NCBI GenBank assembly: GCA_039801245.1
Contig: JBDRUF010000011.1
Span: 1 to 38,845, forward strand
Origin: a candidate division WOR-3 bacterium
Lineage (GTDB): Bacteria; Hydrothermota; Tepidihabitantia; Tepidihabitantales; Tepidihabitantaceae
Reading direction: 5' to 3'
DNA length: 38,845 bases
Numbering within the stretch: the stretch's first letter is position 1; each line of letters begins with the position of its first letter. Under the pieces are notes generated by a model that worked only from the letters and a program-made list of their open reading frames with translations, did no database searches and was not told the origin of the DNA. Positions 15,647-34,234 of this stretch are shown in pieces. A program made the translations under genes and the position numbers.

Positions 15647-15647
15647 T

Positions 15648-17867: not shown

Positions 17868-17870
17868 GAT

Positions 17871-18452
17871 ATGAACAGCGCCAAAATCTTCCTTGCCGCC
17901 TTTTTGGTCAATAACATCATCCTGATGCGCTTTATCGGTCTGTGTCCGTTCTTCGGTGTTTCCACCTCGGTTTCAACATCAATCGGTATGAGCGCAGCGG
18001 TCCTATTTGTGATGCTTTTAGCATCCTGGGTCTCCTGGATTTTATACCATACCCTGCTTTTACCCCTTGGACTGGTATTTCTGCGCACCGCGGTCTTTAT
18101 CCTCGTGATTGCCGCCTTGGTCCAGTTTGTGGAGATGTTTCTCAAAAGGTATATCCGCAACCTCTACTCGGCAATGGGCATCTATCTGCCACTTATCACC
18201 ACCAACTGCGCCATCCTGGCGGTGACATTCTTTAACATCAACTACAAGTTCAACCTCCTCCAGGCAACCATCTTTGCCCTGGGCACCGCCTTTGGCTTTG
18301 CCCTTGCCATCATCCTTTTTGCCGCAATTCGGGAGCGGCTTGAGGATGCGCCCATCAGCCCGGCATTCAAGGGTTATCCGATTGCCTTTATCGGTGCGGC
18401 GCTGGTCTCGCTCGCATTTATGGGCTTTACCGCACTTTTCGGCATCTCATAA
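17871..18452 (+). CDS. rnfA: Rnf complex subunit A
   Basis: RnfA is the inverted partner of RnfE and homologous to NqrE. The 193-residue protein has about six helices. NNIILMRFIGLCPFFGVS and YLPLITTNCAILAVTF carry the paired conserved Cys residues at half-membrane helices. The gene starts 3 nt after rnfE and ends 2 nt before rnfB, in keeping with one operon. Confidence 0.96.
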   Translation: MNSAKIFLAAFLVNNIILMRFIGLCPFFGVSTSVSTSIGMSAAVLFVMLLASWVSWILYHTLLLPLGLVFLRTAVFILVIAALVQFVEMFLKRYIRNLYSAMGIYLPLITTNCAILAVTFFNINYKFNLLQATIFALGTAFGFALAIILFAAIRERLEDAPISPAFKGYPIAFIGAALVSLAFMGFTALFGIS

Positions 18453-18454
18453 AT

Positions 18455-19600: not shown

Positions 19601-20212
19601 TTAATAGCCCCACTCTTCGGTCATATAGACCTTGCGCCGGCAGTCAGGGCAGAGAATCCGCATCGTTCCCGAACGGTAAGGCAGAACCCCTTGAGGCGGT
19701 TTTTCGGGCGCAGCAAGCCCAAGGCTCTGGTAAAGGGTTAAGAGGAGTGTTGGGTTGGAGTTTACCAAATCACCAACCTTGTAGGCGATGTGCAAAAGTT
19801 GCGCCTTAGTGGCAAAGGGCTCACCGCAAGCCTCACAATAGGCAAGTTCCTTTTCCACAAATGTGTCCCAATCTCCCCGCTCGGTCCGGGAAAGGTCAAA
19901 CTCTGGAGTGTGATAAATAGCCTCGGTTGGACAACCTTTGACACATTGCGCGCAGTAGATGCAGCGGTCCGCATGATGGACATTGCGCATCACACCCTTT
20001 TCCCTGTCTAAGATAAGTTCGCGGGCATCGGTTGGACAGACCTGAGAGCAGGCGCCACAGCAGATGCATCTGTCTTCGTGAAATTTTAATATGCCGCGGA
20101 AGTTGGGATGGACCGAATCAACCTCTTTGGGGAAGCGGGTGGTAAACGGTCCTTTAACAACCGCCCTGACCGCCTCAATCAGTTCCCTAACCTTTGGTAA
20201 TGGAATCCTCAT
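19601..20212 (-). CDS. NuoI/HycF-like two-cluster ferredoxin subunit of the hydrogenase complex
   Basis: The 203-residue protein carries two [4Fe-4S] motifs, CICCGACSQVCP and CIYCAQCVKGCP, at about residues 48-105. This matches NuoI/HycF-type subunits that bring electrons from ferredoxin to the small hydrogenase subunit. The C-terminal part holds CEACGEPFATKAQL and, about 55 residues later, CPDCRR, a probable four-Cys zinc site seen in some hydrogenase-4-type homologues. N-terminal residues MRIPLPKVRELIEAVRAVVKGPFTTRFP form an amphipathic anchor typical of the family. It is the last of 18 genes and overlaps mnhG by 4 bp. Having the Q-module ferredoxin after the Mrp genes is an unusual position. 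Confidence 0.88.
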   Translation of the reverse strand: MRIPLPKVRELIEAVRAVVKGPFTTRFPKEVDSVHPNFRGILKFHEDRCICCGACSQVCPTDARELILDREKGVMRNVHHADRCIYCAQCVKGCPTEAIYHTPEFDLSRTERGDWDTFVEKELAYCEACGEPFATKAQLLHIAYKVGDLVNSNPTLLLTLYQSLGLAAPEKPPQGVLPYRSGTMRILCPDCRRKVYMTEEWGY

Positions 20213-20562
20213 TTTTCTTCCTCAATGATTGGTTCTGCACCACGGTCTTTGGTGAACTCATCCTTGACCGTCCCTTTCCAGAGTTTGACACCGGCAATTA
20301 AAGAACCCCGCGCAAGGGCATGGCTTGAGACCGGCACGGTTAAAAGGATGAAAGCTGCACAGATGAGCGCCTTCACTCCGAGGGGGTTGAAGCCGGAGCG
20401 GAGAAAGATGCCAATCATAATCCCGCAGACACCAAGGGTGACGCACTTGGTTGCCGCCTGCATGCGGTTGTAAAGGTCGGGAAAGCGCGCCAAGCCCAGT
20501 GCACCTAAAAGGACAAAGCCGACACCCATCCAGAGAAAGAGAAGGGCAAGGACGCTAATCAT
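20209..20562 (-). CDS. mnhG: Mrp/Mnh antiporter subunit G
   Basis: This 117-residue, three-helix protein has the MnhG/MrpG segment LGALGLARFPDLYNRMQAATKCVTLGV near residues 18-45. It is one of the small accessory subunits of the Mrp-type cation/proton antiporter. The start at 20562 has AGGAG upstream and overlaps mnhF by 8 bp; a longer in-frame extension lies inside mnhF and is rejected. A charged cytoplasmic tail of about 30 residues ends in EEEK. Confidence 0.9.
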   Translation of the reverse strand: MISVLALLFLWMGVGFVLLGALGLARFPDLYNRMQAATKCVTLGVCGIMIGIFLRSGFNPLGVKALICAAFILLTVPVSSHALARGSLIAGVKLWKGTVKDEFTKDRGAEPIIEEEK

Positions 20563-20806
20563 CAAGGCTCCTTTTCTCAAGGAACTTGGCAAGTGCCAAT
20601 GCACCCACGAATGAGATGACCGCCAGGGCGATTGATAGATCAAGGAGATAACTCAACCGGAAACGGAGAGCCAATAATGCGGTTATTGCCGAAAACACCA
20701 CACCCATCATATCAACCGCAATCGCCCGGTCAGCAATTGAGGGTCCAACAAGCGCGCGGTAAAGGCAGAAGAGCGCTGCCGGCACTAACACAATGATTGG
20801 CACCAT
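20555..20806 (-). CDS. mnhF: Mrp/Mnh antiporter subunit F
   Basis: The 83-residue protein has three predicted helices. The family motif VGPSIADRAIAVDMMG lies near residues 19-35, followed by LLDLSIALAVISFVGALALAKFLE. It belongs to the small MnhEFG group, which in Mbh-type hydrogenases forms the sodium-translocating part of the membrane arm. It begins 9 nt after mnhE and overlaps mnhG. Confidence 0.92.
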   Translation of the reverse strand: MVPIIVLVPAALFCLYRALVGPSIADRAIAVDMMGVVFSAITALLALRFRLSYLLDLSIALAVISFVGALALAKFLEKRSLDD

Positions 20807-20815
20807 TACATCCTC

Positions 20816-21304
20816 CTAATCAAAAATCCTCTTCAGGAAAAACTCAAAAGGTCCTTTAATCATCTTTGCCATCTCCTCCGGGTCATCGCTTCTGATTTCA
20901 ATCCAGTGGATATAGAGCGTATCATCCTTTATCTCAACGGTTAATGTTCCTGGTGTCATCGTGATGGAATTGGCAAGGAAAACCCGGGCGATTTCGCTTT
21001 TCAGGCTGGTTTTGATTTTGACGATTCCTGGCTTCAGGTTCAAGCCTGGAGAGAGAACCCGCAGGGCAACATCAATGTTTGCCTTTAAGCACTGCCAGCC
21101 AAACACCGGGATATATACTAAGACCCAGAACCAGCGGACCGGGTTTAAAAGTTTCTTGGGCTCAACCGGCAGGTAGCCGCCAAACATTCCCGCAGCCAAA
21201 AGTGCCACTGCTGCACCGGCAATGATTTCCTGATAGTTAACTGTCCAGGAGAGAAGGAGCCAGACGATAAGTCCGGCAATGAAATAGGCAAGGCGCCGCG
21301 CCAC
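20816..21304 (-). CDS. mnhE: Mrp/Mnh antiporter subunit E
   Basis: The 162-residue protein starts with two helices, then a soluble domain with LANSITMTPGTLTVEIKDDTLYIHWIE, the clear MnhE signature. The start is GTG (21302-21304) with GGGAGG upstream. It abuts the mnhD stop directly. Its partners are the neighbouring Mnh subunits. Confidence 0.92.
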   Translation of the reverse strand: MARRLAYFIAGLIVWLLLSWTVNYQEIIAGAAVALLAAGMFGGYLPVEPKKLLNPVRWFWVLVYIPVFGWQCLKANIDVALRVLSPGLNLKPGIVKIKTSLKSEIARVFLANSITMTPGTLTVEIKDDTLYIHWIEIRSDDPEEMAKMIKGPFEFFLKRIFD

Positions 21305-22810
21305 TTATCCTCCCAGGACCAAACGGGCATATTCCAGCCCGTTTAAAAGCACCTTTGCTGCTGGACCAACAAGATGGTCCAAAACACCCTTGAAACCCAG
21401 GCCAACAACTAAGGTGAGTATTACCAGTACCATCATCGCCATAACCATCAATGCCGGTGACTCCTTTGCCCTGGTTGGCGTCTCATCTTTTTTGGCAAAG
21501 AACGCCTGATTCACAACCTTGGTCAGATAGCCCAGCGTTACCGCTGAGAAGAGCGCGGCAAGAAATGCCAGCCAGTACATCCTTGCAGAAATCGCGCCGA
21601 TGATGATGAAAAGTTTTGAGAAGAAGCCGGCAAATGGTGGAATCCCAGCCATTGAGAAGGAAGCGAGGATATGGGACCAGGAGGTTACCGGCATCGTCCG
21701 TTCAAGCCCTTTGAGTTGCTCAAGGTCCCTTGTGCCGGTCTGACGCTCAACCGAGCCTGCTGAAAGAAACAGCGTGCCTTTGCCAAGGGCATGGGCGAGG
21801 ATATGAAACATTGCACCGGCAACACCCCAGAAGTTGCCGATACCTAAAGCCACCAAGATATAGCCAATCTGGCTGATAGAAGAGTATGCTAAGAGCCGCT
21901 TGTAATCCTTCTGGGAATAGGCTAAAAGGCCACCTAAGACCATTGAAACCGCACCAAAGGCAATCAAAAGATTGAAGAATGCCGGTGTCTCTGCCCGGGA
22001 GACTCCAAAAACATTGAACATCAACCGGCACATCCCATAAACACCGGTAACCTTGATGAAGACGCCGGAAAGCATTGCCGAGATTGGTGCCGGAGCAGAG
22101 AAGTGGGCATCAGCCAGCCAGGCGTGAAACGGCTCCATACCCATCTTAATCGCAAAGCCAACGAGTAGCGTGGCAATCACAAACCAGTAAAACGGGGTCC
22201 TGCCCATTCCGGCAAGAACCTGGGAAAGATGGGCAAGATTCAGGGTTGAAGCCCGGGCATAAAGCAACGCGATGCCAAACAGAAGAACTGCACCCCCAAC
22301 CTCACCCAAAACCATATATTTGAACGCCGCCTCCACCTCCTCCTCTTCCGTGCCAAATGCCACCAAGGCATAACTGGCAATTGCCGAAATCTCAATGAAC
22401 ACATACATATTGAACAAATCCCCTGATATCGCCAGACCGTTCAGACCGGCAATGAGCAAGAGGAGGAGGGTGAAAAACTTCCATCTACCAGTTGTGTAGC
22501 GGTCAAGATAGCGCACCGAGTAAATGGTGGCGCACAATCCGACGATGTTAATCACTAAAACAATCAGTGCGGTGAGGGGATCAAACCACATTGCGATGCC
22601 AATGACACGCCAGCCACCAACCCAGTAATGCATCGGCAGACCAGCAGCATTGACAATCAAAAGACCGTAAATTGAGATACCCAAAAGTGCCGAGACCACA
22701 ATATTTGCTATCAGGTCGGCAAATCTTGACCACAGTTTGGAAAGCAAGGGCACCAGAAAGGCACCACCAAGCGGTAATGCCACAAACAGGGGCAGAAGTT
22801 TACCTTCCAT
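21305..22810 (-). CDS. mnhD: Mrp/Mnh antiporter subunit D (NuoN/M-like ion channel)
   Basis: This 501-residue protein is an antiporter-like subunit with about 14 helices, equivalent to MbhH of Thermococcus Mbh. Key charged sites are present: the TM5-type Glu in NMYVFIEISAIAS (near residue 140), Lys in AIKMGMEPFHAWLADAH, Lys in SGVFIKVTGVYGM, and Lys in LAHALGKGTLFLSAG. The ion path therefore looks intact. It follows mnhC by 2 bp. Confidence 0.94.
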   Translation of the reverse strand: MEGKLLPLFVALPLGGAFLVPLLSKLWSRFADLIANIVVSALLGISIYGLLIVNAAGLPMHYWVGGWRVIGIAMWFDPLTALIVLVINIVGLCATIYSVRYLDRYTTGRWKFFTLLLLLIAGLNGLAISGDLFNMYVFIEISAIASYALVAFGTEEEEVEAAFKYMVLGEVGGAVLLFGIALLYARASTLNLAHLSQVLAGMGRTPFYWFVIATLLVGFAIKMGMEPFHAWLADAHFSAPAPISAMLSGVFIKVTGVYGMCRLMFNVFGVSRAETPAFFNLLIAFGAVSMVLGGLLAYSQKDYKRLLAYSSISQIGYILVALGIGNFWGVAGAMFHILAHALGKGTLFLSAGSVERQTGTRDLEQLKGLERTMPVTSWSHILASFSMAGIPPFAGFFSKLFIIIGAISARMYWLAFLAALFSAVTLGYLTKVVNQAFFAKKDETPTRAKESPALMVMAMMVLVILTLVVGLGFKGVLDHLVGPAAKVLLNGLEYARLVLGG

Positions 22811-22812
22811 TG

Positions 22813-23166
22813 CTATCCTTTCAGCCTTCTGAATTCCGAAACATCAAAGGTCTTGTACTTCTCATAAAGCCGGAGTGCCAGTGAGAGCATCAAGGCGGTT
22901 GTGGAAAGCCCGATAACAATTGCGGTCAGAACCAGCGCCTGCGGCACCGGGTCAACAAAGTTTCTTGCCACACCCATGCGCACCTGTTCCTGTTGGGTGA
23001 CGATTGGTGCCAGCGCGCCCTTTTTGAACCCGACCAGGGCAAAGAAGAGATTGACCGCATACTCAATCAGACAGAAGCCAATGACAATCTTGATCAGGTT
23101 GCGTTTGGAGATGACCACATAAAGACCAATCAGAAACAAAAGGACACAGGCGATATAGGGAATCAT
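22813..23166 (-). CDS. mnhC: Mrp/Mnh antiporter subunit C (NuoK-like)
   Basis: The 117-residue, three-helix protein has NLIKIVIGFCLIEYAVNLFFALVG (holding the conserved buried Glu) and the MnhC hallmark DPVPQALVLTAIVIGLSTTALMLSLALR. It corresponds to NuoK in complex I and MbhG in Mbh. It follows mnhB by 1 bp within the operon. Confidence 0.93.
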   Translation of the reverse strand: MIPYIACVLLFLIGLYVVISKRNLIKIVIGFCLIEYAVNLFFALVGFKKGALAPIVTQQEQVRMGVARNFVDPVPQALVLTAIVIGLSTTALMLSLALRLYEKYKTFDVSEFRRLKG

Positions 23167-23167
23167 C

Positions 23168-23608
23168 TTACTCCTTCATCACAAACCTTGATGCGCCAAG
23201 CGCCAGAAAGATGGCAAAGAGCCCGGCGCCAACCTTCAGTCCTATGGCAATGTTCGCAAAGGGGATGATACCGCCACTGACCAGTTGCAAGGGTCTGCCG
23301 ATAAAGAAAAGTCCGGCATTGCGGAAGAAGTAGTCAGCGGCAAGATAGCCTGCCAATGCCAGGGCAATAAACCCGAGTCCGCCAAAACTCTCAAATATTG
23401 AGGAAAGGATATACTCCTTACGCTCCACCTGCTCAACCGAACCAAAGGCAAGCGAGACCAGAATTAACGCAGCGGCAATCAAAACCCCACCGGCAAAGCC
23501 ACCTCCTGGTGTCAGATGTCCGTGCAGGGTAATGTAGCCACCATAGAGAATGAGCATCCCGGCCATCAAACCGGTTATCACCTTAACAATTGAAGACATC
23601 CCGCGCAT
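23168..23608 (-). CDS. mnhB: Mrp/Mnh antiporter subunit B
   Basis: The 146-residue protein carries GHLTPGGGFAGGVLIAAALILVSLAFG, the MnhB/MrpB (MbhF) signature, within about four helices. The start at 23608 has GGAG 8 nt upstream and lies 2 bp after the preceding stop. It should pack beside MnhC and the MbhD/E-type fusion to form the linker part of the membrane arm. Confidence 0.92.
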   Translation of the reverse strand: MRGMSSIVKVITGLMAGMLILYGGYITLHGHLTPGGGFAGGVLIAAALILVSLAFGSVEQVERKEYILSSIFESFGGLGFIALALAGYLAADYFFRNAGLFFIGRPLQLVSGGIIPFANIAIGLKVGAGLFAIFLALGASRFVMKE

Positions 23609-23610
23609 AA

Positions 23611-24156
23611 TTACAGCTCCTCGGGCTTTTTTCTTGTTACCAGCCGCATCACGGTCAAGACGCCGATAACCGCGGTGAAAAGGACCGTTGCCTCGCCCAA
23701 GGTATCATAGCCACGAAAGTCAAGAATTATTGCCGCAACCACATTTGCCGCACCGGTCCTTTCCAGACCTAACTGGACATACTCCTGCGCAATCCGCATC
23801 ATCGGTTCACCAAATTTGGGCAACTCGCGCAATACACCGATGATAAGGGAAAGGAAAAGACCGCCAAACGCCAGAAAGGCGGCAATGAACATTGCGGTCT
23901 CCATCTTCAAGCCACCGGTAACGGTTGTGTCAATCTCGGTGGTGCGCAAAATTACCGCGGTGAAGAAAACAACCGTCAGGGTTTCAACAACAATCTGAAC
24001 AATCGCCAAATCAGGTGCCTGGACAAGGATAAAGATTATCGCCACACTGAAACCAACTAACCCTAAGGCAACCGCAGCAGCCAGAAGGTTCTTGGTCTCA
24101 CTGGCAACCAGTGCCGCTGCCAACATCACCGCCAGGAGTAAATAAAGTTCAATCAT
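23611..24156 (-). CDS. MbhD/MbhE-type fusion (MrpA C-terminal-like)
   Basis: The 181-residue protein joins two modules. Residues 1-80 resemble MbhD/DUF4040 (APDLAIVQIVVETLTVVFFTAVILR). Residues 90-180 resemble MbhE (LGLERTGAANVVAAIILDFRGYDTLGEATVLFTAVIGVLTVMR). In canonical Mrp antiporters both modules are the C-terminal end of MrpA; in Thermococcus Mbh they are separate genes. Here they form one protein directly after a NuoL-like gene (3-bp gap), so that gene plus this one look like a split MrpA. Confidence 0.85.
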   Translation of the reverse strand: MIELYLLLAVMLAAALVASETKNLLAAAVALGLVGFSVAIIFILVQAPDLAIVQIVVETLTVVFFTAVILRTTEIDTTVTGGLKMETAMFIAAFLAFGGLFLSLIIGVLRELPKFGEPMMRIAQEYVQLGLERTGAANVVAAIILDFRGYDTLGEATVLFTAVIGVLTVMRLVTRKKPEEL

Positions 24157-24159
24157 AAA

Positions 24160-26091
24160 CTACCTCAAGAACAAGAGAAGATAAAACAATACCGCACCTA
24201 AAAACACCCAGGAGAGATAAAGCGGCAGATTACCGGTGTGAATCCTTGATAACCCGAGCCCGAAGTAATAAATCAGTTTGCCGACAAACTCGGTGAGCGC
24301 AACCAGTGCTTTGTCAACACCCTCCCGGAAAATATAGCCGATAACCCGGAAAATGCCCACAAGCCAGTTGTAGATGTCAAAAGCCCCGCGCTCGCCAAAT
24401 ACCAAAAGTTCACCGATGATGGGCATATGCTTGACAGAAGAGTAGAATGCGGTTCCCGTGACCCGGCTCTCTTCTAAATCAAGAATCTTTTCACCACCAA
24501 CAAATGTCCTGCCAATAACCGGCTTGGCAACAGTTCCTAAAGAATAGAGAATCGCACCCAAGCCCAATGCCGCAACCAAAAGAAGTGTTGCCGGAATCGG
24601 ACTCCACATCCCGAAAAGGTTCAAATCATAAAACCCTAAGCCAGGAATAATAAGCCCCCTTAAAGGCACCTGATAGGCAAAAACACCTAAGACCACGCAA
24701 CCAAGCGCTAAAAGGAAAGAGGGGAGCCACATTGTCATACTCACCTCGCGCACCCGTTCAAGGTTTTCTGGTCTTTGACCAAGGAAAAGGGCATGAATCA
24801 TCTTGAGGAAAGAGGCGAGGGTTAACACACTACCCAAAAGCGCAGCAACCAGAAATATGGGGAAAAGCCGATTGCCCTCAGCGCCAACGCTTAAAACCCC
24901 CTGATAAACCATCCACTTGGAGAAAAAGCCGTTTAAAGGCGGCACCCCGGCAATCGCCATTGAACAGAGGAAGAATGAGATAAATGTTAAAGGCATCTGT
25001 TTTGCCACTCCACCCAACTTCTCCAGTTCATCGGTCTTTGCCCAGTGCTCAACCGCACCGGCAGAAAGGAAAAGACCGGTCTTGTAGATGGCATGATTGA
25101 GCATATGGAAAAGCCCGCCGGCAATGCCAACCGGAATACCGGTGCCAATCCCTAAAACCATATAACCCACCTGTGAGACCGCATGGAATGAGAGAAGTTT
25201 CATTGCCCTTTTCTGAACCAGTGCCATCATCACCGCAAAGAGAATTGTTGCCGCGCCGATTGCCATTAGAACATTACGCAGAACCATATTGCTGGAGATG
25301 TCAAACATATAGACCGAAACCCGGACTAAGAGATAGATGCCTAAGAGTTTATCAAGTGAAGCTGGAATGAGCGCCATCACCGGTGCGGGTGCGGTTTCAC
25401 CGGCAGTTGGAATCCAGGTGTGCAATGGCATCGCACCCGCTTTGGCAAGGGCGCCCGCAGCGAGGAGCACAAAGGCACTAATCATTGCCGGGTCATATAA
25501 GGGCATTGAAGCCCTGGGCGCCAGGTCAATCCAGCCACCGGCAACAAATGTCTTCACAATCAAAAGGACAATCCCCAAGAGCATCGCAAAGTCGGAGAGT
25601 CCAACAATGACCAGCGCCTTGCGTGCGGTCCTATAGGTATCCCCTTTACCGATTAAGAGAATCGCATATAAAATCAATAGGAGCGCACCCCAGAAGAAGA
25701 AAAGGGTTATTAGATTGGATGCCAGAACCACGCCGTTGGCAAAGGCAAGAATTAAGAGTGAATAGAGATAATAGCCACGGGTCCCTTCCCTTCCCCGCAT
25801 ATACCGGAAGGAATAGAAAATCACTAAAGTGGCAAATATGCTGACAAAGAGCAGAATAAATCCTGACAACTGGTCAAGCCGAAAACCAAGCGGGATACCG
25901 GCAATGTTTGCCAGTTGGAGTATTATCGGCTCACCGGTGCGAGAAACGAGGAAGAGCCTGATGGCATAATAGAGCGATGCAACCGTCCCGATGAAACTGA
26001 ACTCATTCCGCAATCTGCCGATAAGGTAACCCAATAATCCGGCTGCGGCTGGTATGAGGATTATCATGATAAACGGATGGGAAAACATCAT
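24160..26091 (-). CDS. NuoL/MrpA-like antiporter-type subunit with altered TM5 site
   Basis: The 643-residue protein has about 14 antiporter-type helices and a long C-terminal extension with two or three further helices, as in NuoL. Lysines of the ion path are present in LAKAGAMPLHTWIP, PASLDKLLGIYLL and LNHAIYKTGLFLSAG. The usual TM5 Trp-Glu is Trp-Gly (LFFFWGALLLI, residues 134-135), so the acidic partner of the TM7 Lys is missing. Start and stop overlap or abut neighbours (4-bp overlap upstream). It may act mainly as structure, or use another acidic residue. The family assignment is firm; the effect of the substitution is inference. Confidence 0.9.
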   Translation of the reverse strand: MMFSHPFIMIILIPAAAGLLGYLIGRLRNEFSFIGTVASLYYAIRLFLVSRTGEPIILQLANIAGIPLGFRLDQLSGFILLFVSIFATLVIFYSFRYMRGREGTRGYYLYSLLILAFANGVVLASNLITLFFFWGALLLILYAILLIGKGDTYRTARKALVIVGLSDFAMLLGIVLLIVKTFVAGGWIDLAPRASMPLYDPAMISAFVLLAAGALAKAGAMPLHTWIPTAGETAPAPVMALIPASLDKLLGIYLLVRVSVYMFDISSNMVLRNVLMAIGAATILFAVMMALVQKRAMKLLSFHAVSQVGYMVLGIGTGIPVGIAGGLFHMLNHAIYKTGLFLSAGAVEHWAKTDELEKLGGVAKQMPLTFISFFLCSMAIAGVPPLNGFFSKWMVYQGVLSVGAEGNRLFPIFLVAALLGSVLTLASFLKMIHALFLGQRPENLERVREVSMTMWLPSFLLALGCVVLGVFAYQVPLRGLIIPGLGFYDLNLFGMWSPIPATLLLVAALGLGAILYSLGTVAKPVIGRTFVGGEKILDLEESRVTGTAFYSSVKHMPIIGELLVFGERGAFDIYNWLVGIFRVIGYIFREGVDKALVALTEFVGKLIYYFGLGLSRIHTGNLPLYLSWVFLGAVLFYLLLFLR

Positions 26092-27305
26092 AACCCTCCC
26101 TCAAGAAACCGCACCGGCAGGAACCAGAAAATGCCAAAAATAACTGTAACTACTGCCATAATTATCACTAACGCAATTGACAGGGGCGGAATTCTATTAA
26201 AAGTGCTGTTTTGATAAGCCTTGCCAAGAAAGACCCGAGCATAAAGTCGGCTGAGATAAAGCATTGTAAAAAGAGCGGCAATAAGGGCTCCAATCCCTAA
26301 TAAGATATTTTTTTGCACCGCTCCGATTACCACCCCTATCTTGGCAAAAAATCCTATTGTTGGTGGTAAACCCATTATTGATAATACCAAGACCCCAGCC
26401 GCACCGGCAAGGGCAGGAGAGTTCTGGGCAAAACCGCCTAACTTCTCCAGTTCTCCGGTTCCCCTTGAGTCCTCAATCACACCGGCGGTGAAGAATAGCC
26501 CAGCTTTAGCGACCGCATGCGCCAAAACATATAAAAGTCCGCCCATTACTCCGTAATAACCGGCAACGGCAAATCCTAAGAATATGAAGCCCAGCTGACC
26601 AACAGTTGAATAGGCAAGGGTCTCTCTGATTGTTTTAGTCGTAAGTGCAACACCACCGGCGACAAGACCAGAAGCAACAGCCAGTGTTGCGCTCACAAGG
26701 AAAAAGGGTCCAGCGACCTTTACAGTCAATACAAACAATTTAAGGAACAGAACCAGACCGAGATTTTCTGCAACTCCAGAAAGAAGCGCACAGGCCGGTG
26801 CCGGTGCCTGGCGATATGCCTTTGGCAACCAGATGTATAAAGGAAGGGTTGCGGACTTAGCAAGAATACCTATAAGCACCAGAATCGCCGGGAAGAAGGG
26901 AAGTGGTTTGCCGGCAAGATCCTGAAGAGCCCAGCTCCCCTCTTGAATCTGAATCAAAACCAGGCCAATTAGCATTACTGCAGCAGCAGCAAAATTTATG
27001 TAAAGCGCCCACAACCCCGCCTCGACGCCTTCTTTATTACGGAAATAACTTACCAGCCGCCAGAGTGCAACTGTTGCCAGTTCCCAGAAAACAAATATCA
27101 AAAGCAAATCATGGGCAAAAACTACACCTAAACCAGCACCGACCAAGACAATTAGGAATATGTAGTACTCTCCGAGCCGCCCGTTGTTGCCTTTTATGCT
27201 TGTTATAGAATACAACAAAGCCATCAGCCCGATGAATACAAAAATCCCGGCAAAGAATAACTCCTGTCTGCCAATACCAAAACTGAACCAAGAACCGAAG
27301 TTCAT
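26088..27305 (-). CDS. NuoM/N-like antiporter-type subunit
   Basis: The 405-residue protein is a short antiporter-like subunit, like HyfF or NuoN in build, with 12-13 helices. The TM5 Glu is present (FVFWELATVAL, residue 75). So are the TM7 Lys (LAKSATLPLYIWLPKAY) and TM12 Lys (LAHAVAKAGLFFTAG). The TM8 region reads SGVAENLGLVLFLKL, where relatives usually have a Lys before the Gly; here the position is Asn or Glu. It overlaps both flanking genes by 4 bp. Together with MnhD and the NuoL-like protein this gives the complex three antiporter-type subunits. Confidence 0.88.
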   Translation of the reverse strand: MNFGSWFSFGIGRQELFFAGIFVFIGLMALLYSITSIKGNNGRLGEYYIFLIVLVGAGLGVVFAHDLLLIFVFWELATVALWRLVSYFRNKEGVEAGLWALYINFAAAAVMLIGLVLIQIQEGSWALQDLAGKPLPFFPAILVLIGILAKSATLPLYIWLPKAYRQAPAPACALLSGVAENLGLVLFLKLFVLTVKVAGPFFLVSATLAVASGLVAGGVALTTKTIRETLAYSTVGQLGFIFLGFAVAGYYGVMGGLLYVLAHAVAKAGLFFTAGVIEDSRGTGELEKLGGFAQNSPALAGAAGVLVLSIMGLPPTIGFFAKIGVVIGAVQKNILLGIGALIAALFTMLYLSRLYARVFLGKAYQNSTFNRIPPLSIALVIIMAVVTVIFGIFWFLPVRFLEGGL

Positions 27306-28492
27306 TTGAACCTCTCCCTAAGCCTTTCTGTCTTTTGCCAGGAGAGCCGTAAAAGTTCTTTGCCCGAGTATTTTAATTTCCCATCTTCAAAGGCTGCCAT
27401 CCGCTCGGTGCAACAGTAACAGGGGTCAACCGCCGCAAGGGTGAGCGCCGCATCGGCAATAGAACCACCCTTAACTGCCACAACATTCGAGGCGATGTTC
27501 ATATAACTGGGCGCCCTGATTTTATGCCGCAAAGGACGGTTAGAGCCATCAGAGCGAATGTAGTGGAATACCTCACCGCGCGGTGCCTCGGTTCTACCGA
27601 TGCCTTCACCTGGTGGAATTTCATCAATCCTTGTATCAATCGGTCCGTCAGGCAGGTTGCCCAGGCAACCCCGGATAATACGAATTGACTCAAAAATCTC
27701 AAGAAGTCTGACCTTGGCTTTGGCAAAGACATCACCTTCAGGTAAAACGACAACATTCCAGGGAATTTGGTCATAGGCGCAATGTGGATCATCCCTTCTG
27801 ACATCAATATCAACCCCCGAGGCTCTTGCAGTTGGACCAACGACCGACCAGGCAAGCGCCTGCTCTTTTGTAAGAACACCAACGCCCTCAAGCCGTGCCC
27901 TTATCACCGGGTCATCAAGAACCGCTTTTGTCAACATCAGCGTCTTCTTCTCCACCAAATCTAAGGCTGCCCTGATTTCCGGAATATATTCAGGTTTTAT
28001 ATCCCAGCGCACGCCACCAGGTTTGTTTGCTGCATAATGGTTGCGGTTCCCGGTAATCATCTCAAAAACCTGCAGAACATGCTCCCGATAGCGCCATGCC
28101 CACATCCACACCGTATTGTAACCGATGAAGTGCCCGGCAAGTCCAACCCAGAGAAGATGGGAGTGAATACGCTCAAGTTCGTGGATAATGCTCCGGATGT
28201 AATTTGCCCTTGGTGGCGGCTTGATGCCGGCACAATCTTCAATTGCCAAAACCGCTGCGAGTGGATGAGAATTAGAACAGATCCCGCAGATGCGCTCAAC
28301 TAAGAAAGGCACCTGTTCATAGGTCAGTTCCGGGGAGATGAACTCGTGCCCGCGATGGTTGTAGCCTAAATGAATCTCTAAGTCTACAACCGTTTCGCCT
28401 TCAACAATCAGTTTAAAGAACTCCGGCTCTTCCTGAAGTGGATGATAAGGACCAATTGGAACTATGCGCCTGGTCTTGGTTTCATCGCTCAT
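27302..28492 (-). CDS. Group 4 [NiFe] hydrogenase large subunit (NuoD-like)
   Basis: This 396-residue protein is the catalytic subunit. Both nickel-iron ligand pairs are intact: ERICGICSNSH (Cys69 and Cys72) and DPCYCCTER (Cys358 and Cys361), so H2 chemistry is expected. This separates it from complex I NuoD and from the sulfane reductase MBS, where the ligands are changed. Length and sequence fit membrane-bound energy-converting (group 4) enzymes. About 35 residues follow the second motif; whether this tail is cleaved on maturation is not evident. The start overlaps nuoC-like by 11 bp. Maturation genes (hyp) are not in the window. Confidence 0.95.
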   Translation of the reverse strand: MSDETKTRRIVPIGPYHPLQEEPEFFKLIVEGETVVDLEIHLGYNHRGHEFISPELTYEQVPFLVERICGICSNSHPLAAVLAIEDCAGIKPPPRANYIRSIIHELERIHSHLLWVGLAGHFIGYNTVWMWAWRYREHVLQVFEMITGNRNHYAANKPGGVRWDIKPEYIPEIRAALDLVEKKTLMLTKAVLDDPVIRARLEGVGVLTKEQALAWSVVGPTARASGVDIDVRRDDPHCAYDQIPWNVVVLPEGDVFAKAKVRLLEIFESIRIIRGCLGNLPDGPIDTRIDEIPPGEGIGRTEAPRGEVFHYIRSDGSNRPLRHKIRAPSYMNIASNVVAVKGGSIADAALTLAAVDPCYCCTERMAAFEDGKLKYSGKELLRLSWQKTERLRERFK

Positions 28493-28934
28493 GAGATTCG
28501 CTCCTGTTTTCGTAATCCCGGCGCAAAGGATAGCGGTCTGCTTCCCAGTTGGTATCCGAGGTTAAAAACGGCGTTAGGTTGGGATGTCCGACAAAATCTA
28601 TTCCAAGCAGTTCGTGCATCTCCCTTTCAATCCATTGTGCGGCTGGAAACCAGGCGCCCTGCGAATCAATCTTTGGGTCGTCCTTAGGTGCAAAAACCTT
28701 TAAGGTATAGATGGTACCAGTTTTATCCTCAGAAAAATGATAAAGAACCTCAAACCCATCCCGGGTATCAATACCTGTGCATATAGAAAGCCTCATTCCC
28801 AACTCTTTATGGAGGAATTGGGCTATCTTTGTTAGTTCTTCACGCGGAATGGTCAGATAAAGACGCCGTGGATTTTTCTCAAATACTTGAACCTCGGGGA
28901 AGCGTTCGCGGATAAGGATAAGTGAATTGCTCAT
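28482..28934 (-). CDS. NuoC-like 30-kDa subunit of the hydrogenase complex
   Basis: The 150-residue protein matches the NuoC/30-kDa family. Characteristic segments are LSICTGIDTRDGFEVLYHFSEDKTGTIYTLKVFAPKDDPKIDSQG, WIEREMHELLGIDFVGHPNL, and the C-terminal YPLRRDYE. It scaffolds the small and large subunits in the peripheral arm. Keeping it as a separate gene is like Ech/Mbh; in HycE/HyfG it is fused to the large subunit. It overlaps the small subunit gene by 4 bp. Confidence 0.92.
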   Translation of the reverse strand: MSNSLILIRERFPEVQVFEKNPRRLYLTIPREELTKIAQFLHKELGMRLSICTGIDTRDGFEVLYHFSEDKTGTIYTLKVFAPKDDPKIDSQGAWFPAAQWIEREMHELLGIDFVGHPNLTPFLTSDTNWEADRYPLRRDYENRSESHER

Positions 28935-29347
28935 AGCTTGCTCAATGCCTTTACAATTCCCATTATCATCGCCTCAGGTTTGGGCGGACAGCCTGGAATA
29001 TAGGCATTAACCGGGATGTATTTGTCATAAGGACCAACCGCATTGTAGGAATTGCGGAAGATATGGCAGTTACAGGCGCAAGTACCGATGGCAATCACGA
29101 GGCAGGGTTTTGGAGTCTGTTCATAAACTTCCAGGACCCTTGGCAACGACTTTCTATTAATCACACCAGTCACTAAAAGTGCATCCGCATGCCGAGGAGA
29201 ACCCACAAGAACCGCGCCAAACCGCTCCACATCATAGCGTGGGGTCAAAAGTTCCAGAATTTCAATATCACAGTTGTTACATGATGCCGCAGCGAGGTGG
29301 TAAACCCAAGGTGACTTCTTTAATCCCCAGACTCTTAAATCTTTCAT
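28931..29347 (-). CDS. Group 4 hydrogenase small subunit (NuoB-like)
   Basis: The 138-residue protein is the electron-transfer subunit that holds the single proximal [4Fe-4S] cluster. Ligand motifs are SCNNCDIE (Cys23, Cys26), GTCACNCHIF and PGCPPKPEA. The start at 29347 overlaps the NuoH-like stop by 4 bp; the longer open frame up to 29521 lies within that gene and is rejected. The short size is typical of Ech/Mbh-type small subunits. Confidence 0.94.
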   Translation of the reverse strand: MKDLRVWGLKKSPWVYHLAAASCNNCDIEILELLTPRYDVERFGAVLVGSPRHADALLVTGVINRKSLPRVLEVYEQTPKPCLVIAIGTCACNCHIFRNSYNAVGPYDKYIPVNAYIPGCPPKPEAMIMGIVKALSKL

Positions 29348-30300
29348 AAGCCAATAAATGCCAGAACCAAACCAACTATTCCTAATGGCGCAAGGATAAA
29401 CCAGAAAAATGTCAGCGCCTGATGAATGGTCAGGCGAGGGTTGGTATTTTTCATCAGGACAACTAAAACCACAATCAAGAGAAACTTGAGAATCGCCCAC
29501 CAGTCGCCAATACCACCCCACAACACCGTGAGAAGAAAGAGCGGCAGGAGGACAAACATCATTGCCCGGGTAATTCTGAAAGCGGCAAGGGGCGCACCTG
29601 AATACTCCACAATCACCCCAGACATAATCTCCTGCTCTGCCTCTGGTATATCAAACGGCACATAGCCCAATTTTGCCTGAATCACAAATAGGATAATAAT
29701 TGCCGCAATCACCCCGGAAATGGAATAGAGGAAAGGACCAAACTGTTGTTGATAGGCAATTAGTCCGCCGAGCCGCAGTGCGCTGGCAACATCCCATTTC
29801 TGCGCCACTTTGACAATTGGAACAAGTAATGCCAAGACAAACGGCAGTTCATAGCCAAGATAAAGTGTCATCTCCCTTGAGGCACCAACCGCCGCCACCG
29901 GATTCCTTGAGGCGGAGGCACCGATGATAAAGGCTAAAGGAACCAGGGCAAAGGAGTACAGGATTACGATGATATCGCCGACAAATGATGTCCTTTGCGC
30001 AACAACCACACCGAGGTTGCTATAGAAAAGCATAACCGCCACCAAACTCATTCCGGCGATCCCCACAAGGGGAGCAAAAAGGAACACCGTTCGTGCCGCA
30101 CCTGTGGGGACAATTGTCTGTTTTAACAAGAGTTTTAAAACATCGGCAAATGGCTGATAAAAAGGCGGACCTTTGCGCCACTGGACCCGGGCAGAAACAA
30201 ATCTATCAACCCAGGTGAGAACCAGACCAGCTGCCGGTACAACAATTACTGTTCCCACGAACGCAATCACCAGCCGCCAGCCTGAAAGCCAAGCGCTCAT
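29344..30300 (-). CDS. NuoH/HyfC/EchB-like membrane anchor subunit
   Basis: The 318-residue protein has about eight helices and joins the hydrogenase module to the ion-pumping arm. Recognisable segments are DRFVSARVQWRKGPPFYQPFADVLKLLLKQ and VPFDIPEAEQEIMSGVIVEYSGAPLAAFR, the latter being the strongly conserved NuoH acidic loop. It overlaps the preceding ferredoxin gene and the following small subunit by 4 bp each. Confidence 0.95.
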   Translation of the reverse strand: MSAWLSGWRLVIAFVGTVIVVPAAGLVLTWVDRFVSARVQWRKGPPFYQPFADVLKLLLKQTIVPTGAARTVFLFAPLVGIAGMSLVAVMLFYSNLGVVVAQRTSFVGDIIVILYSFALVPLAFIIGASASRNPVAAVGASREMTLYLGYELPFVLALLVPIVKVAQKWDVASALRLGGLIAYQQQFGPFLYSISGVIAAIIILFVIQAKLGYVPFDIPEAEQEIMSGVIVEYSGAPLAAFRITRAMMFVLLPLFLLTVLWGGIGDWWAILKFLLIVVLVVLMKNTNPRLTIHQALTFFWFILAPLGIVGLVLAFIGL

Positions 30301-30788
30301 ACTCGCCTCCAGAAAGGCATCCGTGCGCCTACACGCTTGCCTACCATTTGTTCCGGTAACTCCTTTTCTTCAATAAACTGCAGGGCACCGGTAGGACAGG
30401 TGGCAGCGCATCGCGGACCATCCTCGCGGTCATAGCAGAGGCTACATTTCTGCGCCATCCTTCTCAAAAGTTCCTTATCAAGGACACCAAATGGACAGGC
30501 AAGGATACAGGATTTGCAGCCAACACAGTGCAAAACCGACTTGACCACAATTCCCCGCTCCTCATCCTTCTTAATTACCTGAAATGGGCAGGCGGCAGCG
30601 CATAACGGCTCCTCACAATGACGGCAGGACAAAGGGATAAGCGCTGTCTCGCTAACCTCAGCATATCTAACCCGCGCCTCACCTTTGAACCGGCTCCGGC
30701 AGGCTGCCTCACATGCCCGACAGCCAATACAATAGTCCAAGCGGACAAAAAGCCTTTTCTTCTGTTGTTTTACACCTGCGCTCGCCAT
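30297..30788 (-). CDS. Four-cluster ferredoxin (HycB/CooF/DmsB-like)
   Basis: The 163-residue protein has four [4Fe-4S] motifs in the DMSO-reductase-B arrangement: CIGCRACEAACR, CRHCEEPLCAAACP, CVGCKSCILACP and CSLCYDREDGPRCAATCP. Such proteins pass electrons between a molybdopterin-family or other redox partner and a membrane hydrogenase, as HycB does in formate hydrogenlyase and CooF in CO-oxidising hydrogenases. It overlaps the end of the molybdopterin-family gene by 19 bp and precedes the NuoH-like gene, so it fits as an electronic bridge (inference). Confidence 0.9.
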   Translation of the reverse strand: MASAGVKQQKKRLFVRLDYCIGCRACEAACRSRFKGEARVRYAEVSETALIPLSCRHCEEPLCAAACPFQVIKKDEERGIVVKSVLHCVGCKSCILACPFGVLDKELLRRMAQKCSLCYDREDGPRCAATCPTGALQFIEEKELPEQMVGKRVGARMPFWRRV

Positions 30789-32371
30789 ATTTCAACCTTG
30801 GTTGGCGGAATTGTAACTATGCCACTCTTATCGTCAACTTCTACCGAAAACAGCGCCCGGTTTTTATGGTTATTAACGCCAATACTTACCACACCAGCCG
30901 GCACTCCTGACGTTGGGTCGCACTGAAACCTCAATTCACTTGTGGGGCTTTTTACCACAACCCATTCCCCCTCCTTAACATTAAGTTTGTTGGCATCACC
31001 CGGGTTAATACCAATTTTATCCTCTTGCTCAAAGAAACCGCCAACACCAAAAGCCTGCTTTTCCCCTAATAGGAAAAAGCCATCACCTTCAAAAGAGGGG
31101 ATGTTGTACTCGGCGGCAAACTGTAAAACTTCTGCTACAGAGAACCTTTTCCTTTCTGGTAAGGGAAGGGGTTGGATTTCTTTACCCGCAATCTTTTTTA
31201 CAATCTCGGCTAAAGATTTTGTCCCGCTCACCGGAGGGGCAAGCGGCTCCCGGTTCGCCTCTCCCCAGAGCGTCTCTGCCCTGCCCTTTTTTTCGTATTC
31301 GCTGGGCACAGGTAAAACCAGACCTGGTAATGGGTTCGCAGGGCGAAAGATGCTTGATGCCACCCGGAACCTAACATTCTTCATTTCAGGGAACACCTCA
31401 GGGTAGGAGTAAGGAAAAAGCCCACCAAACCAGAAAAGCATCTTGATTTTACCCTGGCTAATCTTTTCCCTTAACTTGCCAAAGGAAATTTTGCCCTCAG
31501 GAACCAGCGCCTCAGTAAAGCCGGTAAAGGGCTTGTTCGCCTTTAACGCCACCAGTTGCGCGCACAGGCTGTGTAAAAGGGGATTATACACCCTGCCCAA
31601 AAATGCCGAGGCGCCAACAAAACCGCTATTAGTGTTTTTAAGGATTTGCGCCGCCTGCTCAATAATACCACGCTGAACCCCGGAACGCTGAACACAATCA
31701 TCAATATTTATCCTTAAGTTCGGGTCTAAAATCCCGGCAATGGCAAGGAGGGCAAGGTATTCTCTCCCAGGTCTTACCTGAATAAATATATGGGCAAACC
31801 CTGCCTGTTTGGTTTTGATGGAGTCAATCACAATGAGCCGGCTGGTTTTCTCCGCATAGCGCGCCTCGAGCAGCGGTTTTGCTGCTACTGGTGAGGTGCT
31901 GAAGACATCACCAACAAGGATGGTTGCCCTTGAGGCGGTAATATCATCAAGTTTTGCCTGTTTTACACCCTCCAGTTGGTACCAGAAATAGTTGCTCGGC
32001 TCAAGATAGCCGCAGGCAATGCTTTCTATTCCTAAAGCCCCTGCCAAACCGTAAACAATTTTTATCTCCTCATCCTGTAATCCGCGGCTGTAAACAATCG
32101 CAATCTCCTCAGGCAAACACTGGGAGCGCCACTCCTTGATAAGACCAAAAGCCCTTTCCCAGTTTATCTCCTTGCCATCAAGAAGTGGATAACAGAGCCT
32201 TTTCGGATGGTCAATGACAATATTGGCGCTGTTTCCCCGCGGGCATAACCGACCGTGATTGGGCTCAACATCTGTTAAATATTCAATCCGGTACTGATAC
32301 CCATCATAACTGACACCCACACGGCAACCATTAAGGCAAAGCGGGCAAACAGTTTTCCTTAACTCGCTCAC
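30770..32371 (-). CDS. Short molybdopterin-oxidoreductase-family protein (FdhA/NuoG-like)
   Basis: The 533-residue protein has an N-terminal [4Fe-4S] site (Cys9, Cys12, Cys16, Cys43) with LCPRGNSAN, then a molybdopterin-oxidoreductase body and a C-terminal dinucleotide-binding domain (KIGINPGDANKLNVKEGEWVVV...GVVSIGVNNHK). It is shorter than typical FdhA (about 700 or more). The region where formate dehydrogenases have Sec/Cys followed by His reads IESIACGYLEPSNYF, so a Cys is nearby (Cys120) but the Cys-His pair is not evident. It may be a NuoG-like, non-catalytic electron relay, or an enzyme with an unknown substrate. It overlaps both neighbours by 4 and 19 bp. Confidence 0.75.
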   Translation of the reverse strand: MSELRKTVCPLCLNGCRVGVSYDGYQYRIEYLTDVEPNHGRLCPRGNSANIVIDHPKRLCYPLLDGKEINWERAFGLIKEWRSQCLPEEIAIVYSRGLQDEEIKIVYGLAGALGIESIACGYLEPSNYFWYQLEGVKQAKLDDITASRATILVGDVFSTSPVAAKPLLEARYAEKTSRLIVIDSIKTKQAGFAHIFIQVRPGREYLALLAIAGILDPNLRINIDDCVQRSGVQRGIIEQAAQILKNTNSGFVGASAFLGRVYNPLLHSLCAQLVALKANKPFTGFTEALVPEGKISFGKLREKISQGKIKMLFWFGGLFPYSYPEVFPEMKNVRFRVASSIFRPANPLPGLVLPVPSEYEKKGRAETLWGEANREPLAPPVSGTKSLAEIVKKIAGKEIQPLPLPERKRFSVAEVLQFAAEYNIPSFEGDGFFLLGEKQAFGVGGFFEQEDKIGINPGDANKLNVKEGEWVVVKSPTSELRFQCDPTSGVPAGVVSIGVNNHKNRALFSVEVDDKSGIVTIPPTKVEIWRAQV

Positions 32372-33183
32372 AGGAACGGCTCCTCAATGTCTTTAATCTG
32401 CTCCCAGGTGAGAACCGGACCATCCTTGCAGGTAAAATAAGGACCTAACCGGCAGTGTCCGCACTGACCCAGTCCGCAGGACATATTCATCTCCATTGAG
32501 AGGTAGATTGAACCTCCTGGGAACCCGGCTTCAAGCAGTTTTTTGGTGACAAATTTCATCATTATCGGTGGTCCGCATACCACCGCCACACTCTTTTTCA
32601 CATCGCAGGGGATCTCATCCATCAGGCAGGTGACAACACCCACCTTCCGCTCCCAGGGTTCATCCGCCGCATCAACCGAAAGGTCAATATCAACACCCTT
32701 TATTTTCTCCCACTCTTTCAGCTGTTTCTTATAGACAATATCTTTGGGCGTGCGCGCGCCGTAACGGAGAAATATTCTACCATATTTCTTCTTCTCCTCG
32801 GTCAACGCCAGAAACAGCGCCCGCAGAGGGGCAAGACCAACGCCACCACCAACAATATAGATATCCCTGCCTTCAAACTCCTTTAACGGATAGGGCTTGC
32901 CATAAGGACCGCGAATCCCCAATAAATCCCCTGGTTTTTTGGTAAAAAGCGCCCCGGTTGCCCTGCCAACACGCATAATTGTCATCTCCAGGGTTTCCCG
33001 TCGAAAATGGGATGACGATGGTGTAAATGGCGCCTCGCCAAATCCAGGGATGGTCAGTTCCACAAACTGACCGGCAAGAAATGGTATCTCCCTCTCCGGC
33101 TTTAAGACAAATGTCCTGATATTGGGTGTCTCCTCAATCACATCCAGTATCTTTGCCTGAACCGGTTGATAGGGATTGCTCAT
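32368..33183 (-). CDS. FAD/NAD(P)-binding reductase (HydG/AsrB/PyrK-like)
   Basis: The 271-residue protein is a ferredoxin-NADP reductase-type flavoprotein. An N-terminal FAD barrel is followed by GPYGKPYPL, then the NAD(P) domain with VGGGVGLAPLRAL near residue 110. The C-terminal motif CGLGQCGHC...GPYFTCKDGPVLTWEQI binds a [2Fe-2S] cluster, as in sulfhydrogenase gamma subunits, AsrB and PyrK. With the next-door HydB-like protein it forms a pyridine-nucleotide module. Here it heads an energy-converting hydrogenase operon, not a soluble sulfhydrogenase. Preference for NADH or NADPH cannot be read from the sequence. Confidence 0.9.
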   Translation of the reverse strand: MSNPYQPVQAKILDVIEETPNIRTFVLKPEREIPFLAGQFVELTIPGFGEAPFTPSSSHFRRETLEMTIMRVGRATGALFTKKPGDLLGIRGPYGKPYPLKEFEGRDIYIVGGGVGLAPLRALFLALTEEKKKYGRIFLRYGARTPKDIVYKKQLKEWEKIKGVDIDLSVDAADEPWERKVGVVTCLMDEIPCDVKKSVAVVCGPPIMMKFVTKKLLEAGFPGGSIYLSMEMNMSCGLGQCGHCRLGPYFTCKDGPVLTWEQIKDIEEPFL

Positions 33184-34199
33184 AACTGTCCTAAGATATT
33201 ACGGATATCTATTCTGCCCATACAGGTGGAAAAGCAGCGCCCGCAACCAGAACAGGCGTAAAAACCGTTCTGATTTTTTGAATGCATAAACTTGCAGTGA
33301 AACCGGTTGATGAAGCGGTCAATAAACCTTGCCCTGGGGTTGGCACCGCCACCAACCCGGGCATACATCGGAAGATAGCAGAAATCCCAGACCCTACTTC
33401 TTTCAAACCTTTCCGCATTCCCCTGGTCATAAAGAAGAAAGCAGAAGCAGGTCGGGCAGGTCAAAAGGCACCCAAAGCATTCCACACAATCCCTTGCCGC
33501 ATCAATCCAGAATCTCTTGTCAGCGGTTTTATCAGCAATCGCCTGGGCCAGGTTTGGGTTCCAATCCTTAGGGTTCTGCTCTTTAAGAATCCGCATCGCC
33601 TTTTGCCGCTGCTCCTCCCTTTTGGCAATTTGGCTGTCTGTTGCCTTTTGCAACCCATTTTCCATCTGCATCAGTTCTGCCCCGCGTTCAGAAAGAGCCT
33701 CAATCAGCCAGCCATCATCAATGACGGTCAAACTCAAATCCACATCCTCGGTTAAAAATGGCTTTAACCCTAAAAGGTTGCAGAAGCAGGTCCTTTCCGG
33801 TGCCGGGCAGTCTGCACCAAGAAGAATGGTGTTATTTAACCTCTGGGCAAAAAACGGGTCGGCAAACTCACCTTCAAGAAACATCCTTTTATGAACCGCA
33901 ATACCGCGCAGGTCACACCCCTTAACCCCAAAAAGGAGGGTGGGTTTCATCTTAGTTTCTGGTTCAACCGGCTCAGGAAATGAGGCGACCCTTTCCCGCG
34001 GTGAAAAGAAAAACGGCTTGATTGGCTCCGCTGCACGGATTTTCCTTAAAGCCAGTTGCTCAATATTGAAATCATTAGCGTCATACCGCTGCCAGTGAAC
34101 AGCCTCGTCAACCTCTCTCGGATAAAAAAGATTGAACCTGCCTGCCAGACTGGCAAGCCAAGAGGAACACCTGTGATTGGGTAGAAAATATGCGTCCAA
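33180..34199 (-). CDS. HydB/AsrA-like Fe-S protein
   Basis: The 339-residue protein matches the beta subunit of sulfhydrogenases and AsrA. A mixed N-terminal domain contains FGVKGCDLRGIAVHKRMF and ADCPAPERTCFC. Two C-terminal [4Fe-4S] motifs follow: CVECFGCLLTCPTCFC and CSGCGRCFSTCMGRIDIR. It should carry electrons between the FAD subunit and the rest of the complex. It is the first gene of the operon and begins with TTG (34197-34199), only 7 nt after the predicted -10 box, with no ribosome site. No better in-frame start follows before the conserved region. It overlaps the next gene by 4 bp. Confidence 0.88.
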   Translation of the reverse strand: MDAYFLPNHRCSSWLASLAGRFNLFYPREVDEAVHWQRYDANDFNIEQLALRKIRAAEPIKPFFFSPRERVASFPEPVEPETKMKPTLLFGVKGCDLRGIAVHKRMFLEGEFADPFFAQRLNNTILLGADCPAPERTCFCNLLGLKPFLTEDVDLSLTVIDDGWLIEALSERGAELMQMENGLQKATDSQIAKREEQRQKAMRILKEQNPKDWNPNLAQAIADKTADKRFWIDAARDCVECFGCLLTCPTCFCFLLYDQGNAERFERSRVWDFCYLPMYARVGGGANPRARFIDRFINRFHCKFMHSKNQNGFYACSGCGRCFSTCMGRIDIRNILGQL

Positions 34200-34206
34200 G
34201 AAGTGA

Positions 34207-34234
34207 AATATATAAACCTTGCCCCTCCTGTCAA
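34207..34234 (-). promoter_or_regulatory. Predicted promoter of the 18-gene hydrogenase operon
   Basis: On the minus strand TTGACA (34229-34234), 16 bp and TATATT (34207-34212) form a near-consensus promoter. The TTG start codon begins 7 nt after the -10 box, so transcription would start at or within a base or two of the codon. No later promoter is evident, since nearly all genes below overlap or abut. Confidence 0.7.

Follow-up and report, generated by a model that had tools for sequence, protein, structure and literature searches.

Positions 1 to 38,845 of contig JBDRUF010000011.1, from the assembly GCA_039801245.1 of a candidate division WOR-3 bacterium, form the window that was analysed here. 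On its minus strand, 18 genes (34199-19601, HydB first and NuoI last) encode a [NiFe] hydrogenase together with a HydB/HydG-like (HydBG) module, a four-cluster ferredoxin and a membrane arm with antiporter-type subunits. Judged from their sequences, we consider it likely that the products form a single membrane-bound complex, namely a group 4g [NiFe] hydrogenase with a HydBG module for NAD(P)H, which would couple its reaction to ion movement. The linkage of HydBG with the hydrogenase is near-obligate; the input module is the constant part and the antiporter arm the variable part.

The open reading frames (ORFs) and the family profile matches agreed on the 18 genes, and from the coordinates all 17 junctions ranged from a 19-base overlap to a 9-base gap. 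Spaced this closely, the genes almost certainly belong to a single transcription unit. Just 5' of HydB lies the region's best promoter-like match (11 of 12 positions, by consensus only), which by itself is weak evidence. Two starts probably have to be corrected, NuoB to about 29347 and MnhG to about 20562. The features are as follows:

33180..34199, minus strand: HydB/AsrA-like Fe-S subunit; 16 invariant Cys; TTG start; putative electron relay of the input module
32368..33183, minus strand: HydG/AsrB-like FAD/NAD(P)/[2Fe-2S] subunit; presumed NAD(P)H site
30770..32371, minus strand: short molybdopterin-fold protein; N-terminal [4Fe-4S] site, no Mo/W ligand; WOR-3-specific
30297..30788, minus strand: CooF/HycB-like ferredoxin; four [4Fe-4S] motifs, 16/16 Cys invariant
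29344..30300, minus strand: NuoH/MbhM-like membrane anchor
28931..29347, minus strand: NuoB/MbhJ-like small subunit; proximal cluster
28482..28934, minus strand: NuoC/MbhK-like subunit
27302..28492, minus strand: [NiFe] large subunit; all four Cys ligands; C-terminal extension after CTER
26088..27305, minus strand: ApM, antiporter-type; 405 amino acids, short at the N-terminus; Glu75 of transmembrane helix 5 (TM5) kept in 31/31
24160..26091, minus strand: ApL, NuoL/MrpA-like antiporter subunit; TM5 Glu lost, Gly/Asn in 29/29
23611..24156, minus strand: MbhD-MbhE fusion (MrpA C-terminal part)
23168..23608, minus strand: MnhB/MrpB-like
22813..23166, minus strand: MnhC/NuoK-like
21305..22810, minus strand: MnhD/MrpD-like antiporter subunit; TM5 Glu140 in 28/31, Lys222
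20816..21304, minus strand: MnhE/MrpE-like
20555..20806, minus strand: MnhF/MrpF-like
20209..20562, minus strand: MnhG/MrpG-like; start trimmed from the listed ORF
19601..20212, minus strand: NuoI/HycF-like 2x[4Fe-4S] subunit; extra invariant CxxC...CxxC tail
34207..34234, minus strand: promoter-like match TTGACA-16-TATATT; consensus only

The linkage was read in two partly overlapping sets of genomes, whose counts are not additive. A GTDB-wide scan gave 475 relatives of the large subunit, the best 80 of which were taken; 56 of these 80 loci had at least 5.8 kb of sequence upstream and thus room for the module. HydB, HydG and the ferredoxin were found upstream in 53 of the 56. Of the high-scoring class, 22 loci were examined in a sample of 145 Omnitrophota genomes; 20 of them contained HydB-HydG-ferredoxin, and the other two ended in an N run or at a contig end. 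The clade linked to the module spans WOR-3, Omnitrophota, Endomicrobia and metagenome-assembled genomes (MAGs) of Clostridia. Among the WOR-3 relatives, the order HydB-HydG-molybdopterin-type gene-ferredoxin-NuoH-NuoB-NuoC-large subunit was the same at every locus with enough contig. An earlier reading of this stretch, made from the letters alone (the sequence-only reading), had suggested testing whether HydB, HydG and the molybdopterin-family gene always travel with the [NiFe] core. This was borne out for HydB and HydG, and the modules were not found apart in most genomes; the molybdopterin-family gene was limited to the WOR-3 loci.

The exceptions were of different kinds. One locus (L105) has an N run at the site expected for HydBG. 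Another (L084/L186) is broken, with HydB, HydG and a fragment of the molybdopterin-type gene elsewhere in the same genome; because this MAG contains N runs and the module is present elsewhere, the break is probably a scaffolding join. In the third (L092/L187, genome G042), the operon is scattered, with NuoC, the large subunit and NuoI in one place and HydB and HydG, separated by a small gene, in another; both belong to the same clade as the operon copies. A loss of HydBG at L105, L163 and L164 was rejected on account of the N runs or contig end at these loci. When operon-type HydB was defined by a score of at least 240 bits (39-100% identity), 40 of 41 WOR-3 genomes carried it within the operon, a few matches being split or cut by contig ends. 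The 41st genome, 82% complete, had no large subunit of the operon type. All other HydB-like copies in the WOR-3 genomes scored at most 166 bits over comparable lengths, and HydBG was sought in the lower-scoring group 4 class of WOR-3 and Omnitrophota and found in none. A second type of group 4 hydrogenase (L056, L167-L177), about 44% identical, has the order ApM-ApL-MnhD-MnhC-NuoB-NuoC-large subunit-NuoH-NuoI, with the motif DPCFSCTDR in L167; it occurs in WOR-3 and Omnitrophota, has no HydBG and served as outgroup.

The HydG sequences that accompany the 4g hydrogenase formed one clade (98/99). Outside it lay the genome's second, Flx-type HydG, a copy from group 3b and that of Pyrococcus furiosus sulfhydrogenase I (SHI), in a tree whose outgroup consists of three rows only, all on long branches. 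The large subunits likewise formed one clade (98/98), with Mbh and HycE on long branches whose joins were set aside. Within this clade lies the enzyme from Ca. Saelkia tenebricola (L113), which has been described as 4g, and on this basis we assign the hydrogenase provisionally to group 4g. The distance matrices of HydG, HydB, the ferredoxin and the large subunit were correlated (Mantel r 0.83-0.89; 0.89 for HydG and the large subunit), as expected of joint inheritance. Taken as sequence evidence, the trees indicate that the HydBG module was recruited once to this clade of hydrogenases.

HydB and HydG matched both sulfhydrogenase and AsrAB models in the profile search. In the PDB, the module matched SHI (9nez), with values of 2e-39 for HydB against the beta subunit and 1.4e-50 for HydG against the gamma subunit. 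The curated NCBIfam cut-offs were missed (155 versus 690 bits for the ShyB model, 179 versus 650 bits for HydG); by these scores, both are homologues of the sulfhydrogenase subunits, not equivalogs. All 16 HydB cysteines that are invariant among its relatives were visible in the alignment to SHI beta. HydG kept its FAD, NAD and [2Fe-2S] motifs: of 119 sequences, 118 have the GGGxGxxP loop and 116 the [2Fe-2S] motif. The ferredoxin is of the HycB type, which connects oxidoreductase and hydrogenase in formate hydrogenlyase and the hydrogen-dependent carbon dioxide reductase, and its 16 cysteines, all invariant among the relatives, account for four [4Fe-4S] clusters. In place of the HydA/HydD-type subunits of the soluble group 3b sulfhydrogenases, the operon encodes NuoD/NuoB-type subunits and a membrane arm. 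A second, weaker HydB/HydG pair occurs in the same genome (L143:7227-10354, contig C15), next to an MvhD-like and another Fe-S gene, and is Flx/Hdr-like by appearance. It was rejected as a free copy of the operon module, as it lies with these genes away from any hydrogenase.

Family profiles identified the NuoB/C/D/H/I-like core that is typical of group 4, and the large subunit contains two CxxC ligand pairs, in the motifs RICGIC and DPCYCCTER. All 38 relatives compared have the four Ni-Fe ligands (C69, C72, C358 and C361). HypD and a HycI-family protease, as needed for [NiFe] maturation, were found in the genome, and the C-terminal tail after CTER is as expected of a protease-matured subunit. 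Because the large subunit was the sole [NiFe] match at E <0.001 in this assembly (97% complete) and a search of it for [FeFe] hydrogenases found none, the operon appears to encode the genome's only hydrogenase. Among named genomes, relatives of the large subunit at 82-92% identity were almost all MAGs of WOR-3 (Stahlbacteria). The NuoI-like subunit (19601-20212, minus strand) carries a further CxxC...CxxC pair towards its C-terminus, which all 29 relatives keep unchanged and which is possibly a zinc or rubredoxin-like site.

Whereas Mbh has one antiporter-type subunit, the operon encodes three, and profile matches to MbhDE and MnhB, C, E, F and G complete the arm. ApM and MnhD keep the TM5 Glu and Lys residues in operons of the type found in the window. 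In ApL, the TM5 Glu is replaced by Gly or Asn in all 29 relatives and the other channel Lys and His residues are kept. All Mrp subunits from A (split) to G are present, but ApL lacks this TM5 Glu. Compact loci of WOR-3 and Omnitrophota (L071/L038, L032, L162 and L180) encode just one or two subunits of the antiporter type and lack the Mrp set; they retain HydBG and would be natural minimal forms of the complex. The sequence-only reading had listed the 18 genes, the HydB/HydG-like module, the four-cluster ferredoxin, a group 4 core with intact ligands, and three antiporter-type subunits with an MnhBCEFG-like set, all of which were recovered here.

It had also named a molybdopterin-family protein. 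The fold family stands: an AlphaFold2 model (pLDDT 90.8, pTM 0.92) was grouped by Foldseek with formate dehydrogenase (FDH), Nap and NuoG, the closest solved folds were formate dehydrogenases, and the sequence profiles were also closer to FDH than to NuoG. The protein has just 533 amino acids, about 180 fewer than FdhF, and lacks the conserved Cys/Sec/Ser/Asp metal ligand of the DMSO reductase family; the Cys/Sec-His position reads Tyr-Leu in one alignment and Glu-Pro in another, and is unconserved. Across 23 diverse members, the invariant residues were the four cluster cysteines and scattered structural residues. An active molybdoenzyme was therefore rejected. The gene lies inside the operon in 40 of 41 WOR-3 relatives, in which only weak FDH-like matches occur elsewhere, and was absent between HydG and the ferredoxin in the Omnitrophota, Endomicrobia and Clostridia loci examined, so that it was also rejected as an obligate part. 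Its confinement to WOR-3 and its cofactor-less appearance argue against a second active redox site. By analogy with complex I, the protein is probably an FDH-derived subunit that has lost its metal site and acts as a NuoG-like scaffold and [4Fe-4S] wire. In Clostridia MAGs (L120, L130 and L131), HydB-HydG-ferredoxin is preceded by a gene of the molybdopterin/FDH type. The one in L120 encodes a genuine formate dehydrogenase that retains Cys-His, and MobA-, FdhD- and Rex-like genes come after it, a context that suggests a formate link.

Operon, domains, ligands, linkage and co-inheritance were observed directly, and from them we infer the assembly, electron donor, direction and ion. NAD(P)H would transfer a hydride to the FAD of HydG, and the electrons would leave through its [2Fe-2S] cluster. 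From there they would run over the clusters of HydB and of the four-cluster ferredoxin, then over the two in NuoI and the one in NuoB, and finally reach the Ni-Fe site, where protons would be reduced to H2. Only in WOR-3, the degenerate FDH-like subunit may contribute one [4Fe-4S] cluster and serve as scaffold, much like NuoG in complex I. NuoH, the three antiporter-type subunits and the Mrp set could couple the electron flow to the movement of Na+ or H+. Going from NADH to H2 is either energetically uphill or close to equilibrium, which would make the complex reversible; since the NAD(P)H couple lies close to that of H2, its direction would be set by H2 pressure, redox ratio and ion gradient. 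A complete rnfCDGEAB cluster (14345-19465, plus strand) converges on the 3' end of the operon, and Rnf is a likely partner in the ion and ferredoxin/NADH economy. An ion gradient, for example from Rnf, might thus be spent on forming H2 from NAD(P)H, or energy might be conserved at low H2 or during H2 oxidation.

Several points weigh against such a complex. It is predicted from gene sequences, and linkage in an operon is no proof of physical assembly. NADH-dependent H2 formation is endergonic under standard conditions, the sequences fit NADH or NADPH alike, and shared species history alone gives some of the distance correlation. In the 4g passages of HydDB and of later work, ferredoxin is presumed to be the donor (PMC5037454, PMC8542988). 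Accordingly, confurcation was considered, in which ion-coupled H2 formation would draw both on NAD(P)H and on reduced ferredoxin, the latter entering at NuoI or at the four-cluster protein. The group 4 parents use ferredoxin, the many clusters could provide a second entry, and Mbh-Bfu is predicted to use NADH and ferredoxin (PMC9304861). We nevertheless regard this as unlikely: HydB and HydG are not homologues of BfuB/C or NfnL, and the operon contains no second flavin protein. To our knowledge, no bifurcating flavin has been established for SHI or AsrAB.

Somewhat more doubtful is the idea that HydBG is a soluble enzyme in its own right, an NAD(P)H oxidoreductase or a sulfur reductase, and shares only its transcript with an ordinary ferredoxin-driven Mbh. 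Homologues of HydBG do partner with SHI, AsrC and HdrABC, and in G042 HydB and HydG lie apart from the core. Yet the linkage is near-invariant over phyla, the HydG sequences form a single clade, a HycB-type adaptor always lies between HydG and the core, and even the scattered genome has retained both genes. An ion-pumping sulfhydrogenase with sulfur or polysulfide as acceptor is very improbable; HydBG resembles sulfhydrogenase and AsrAB, and SHI has sulfur reductase activity (cited in a passage of PMC8542988), but the [NiFe] ligands are intact and the operon includes no sulfur-specific subunit. Least credible is an active molybdopterin subunit, for example one acting on formate, so that the complex would be a formate hydrogenlyase branching to NAD(P)H. 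The nearest folds and the FdhA near the L120 operon would speak for it; the replaced ligands, the short chain, the few invariant residues and the absence outside WOR-3 speak against it.

If HydBG truly belongs to the complex, a single reversible machine would connect NAD(P)H, H2 and an ion gradient in many anaerobes that have not been cultured (WOR-3, Omnitrophota, Endomicrobia and some Clostridia), and models of fermentation and syntrophy built on MAGs would change. More tentatively, and with slightly less than even confidence, we propose a widespread ion-translocating NAD(P)H:H+ oxidoreductase of the size of complex I, whose input evolved independently of NuoEFG and Bfu and for which WOR-3 acquired and inactivated an FDH-like subunit, in a rerun of the presumed history of NuoG.

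Two further genes of the window lie beyond the operon. A gene for an FG-GAP repeat protein with a Por secretion-system C-terminal sorting domain (34558-36111, minus strand) adjoins it, and a ThyX-type protein of 507 amino acids (36694-38217, minus strand) has two Thy1 matches and about twice the usual length.

The operon is a real and widespread variant that was seen earlier but not worked out. According to the main text of PMC6349859 (2019), one region of Saganbacteria RX5A encodes CooF, AsrA and AsrB beside a group 4 hydrogenase, Mrp-like subunits and a molybdopterin protein that could not be classified; as described there, this is the same gene set as in WOR-3. The hydrogenase, closest to those of Zixibacteria and Omnitrophica, was called 'enigmatic', with an Mbh-like role, and parts of the region were suggested to be an oxidoreductase module. 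This is a single locus; linkage across genomes, loss of the Mo ligand and module swapping are absent from that main text. The HydDB description gives 4g an 'undetermined', putatively ferredoxin-coupled role (PMC5037454), and the hydrogenase of Ca. Saelkia tenebricola, about 63% identical to the large subunit of the window, is described as Mrp-linked 4g (PMC8542988); the 4g passages of both papers contain no mention of a HydBG module. In Chloroflexi, Mbh-Bfu was predicted, with bifurcation proposed (PMC9304861); it likewise joins a group 4 hydrogenase to an NAD(H) module, but this is the NuoEF-like BfuABC. A 2025 survey of WOR-3 (PMC12542636) stresses Mvh/Hdr and Rnf, and a search of its text for Mrp found none. 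Because the Saganbacteria region, as far as described, has the same gene set and Mbh-Bfu another NADH module, the novelty is limited. The sequence-only reading was supported as to the single operon and the HydBG linkage, but not as to a constant linkage of the molybdopterin gene; its comparison with known systems was incomplete, given the Saganbacteria gene set and the predicted Mbh-Bfu. New are the near-obligate linkage, the single recruitment, the degenerate molybdopterin subunit and a testable donor for group 4g.

P. furiosus Mbh (6cfw, group 4d), the best PDB match of the large subunit, shares the core, NuoH/NuoI and the Mrp-type arm, but lacks HydBG, or any pyridine nucleotide module, and the four-cluster protein. 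E. coli formate hydrogenlyase (7z0s, group 4a) has a HycB-type adaptor between oxidoreductase and group 4 core and a HycF-like NuoI; its input is FdhF (formate), with neither Mrp set nor NAD(P)H module. SHI (group 3b), in which HydBG is the NADPH-reactive part, has the same type of module, but is soluble, with other hydrogenase subunits and no membrane arm. In the T. onnurineus Fdh3 system (PMC8965080), an NADP-binding flavoprotein and Fe-S proteins exchange electrons with FDH in a comparable HydBG-type arrangement; unlike here, it is soluble, with an active tungsten FDH and no hydrogenase. Complex I resembles the operon in size, in the NuoBCDHI core, in three antiporter-type subunits and in a metal-less molybdopterin-fold subunit, whereas it has the NuoEFG input and quinone in place of the Ni-Fe site. 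If the proposed complex exists, it would be an independent answer to the same problem, the delivery of NAD(P)H electrons into an antiporter arm.

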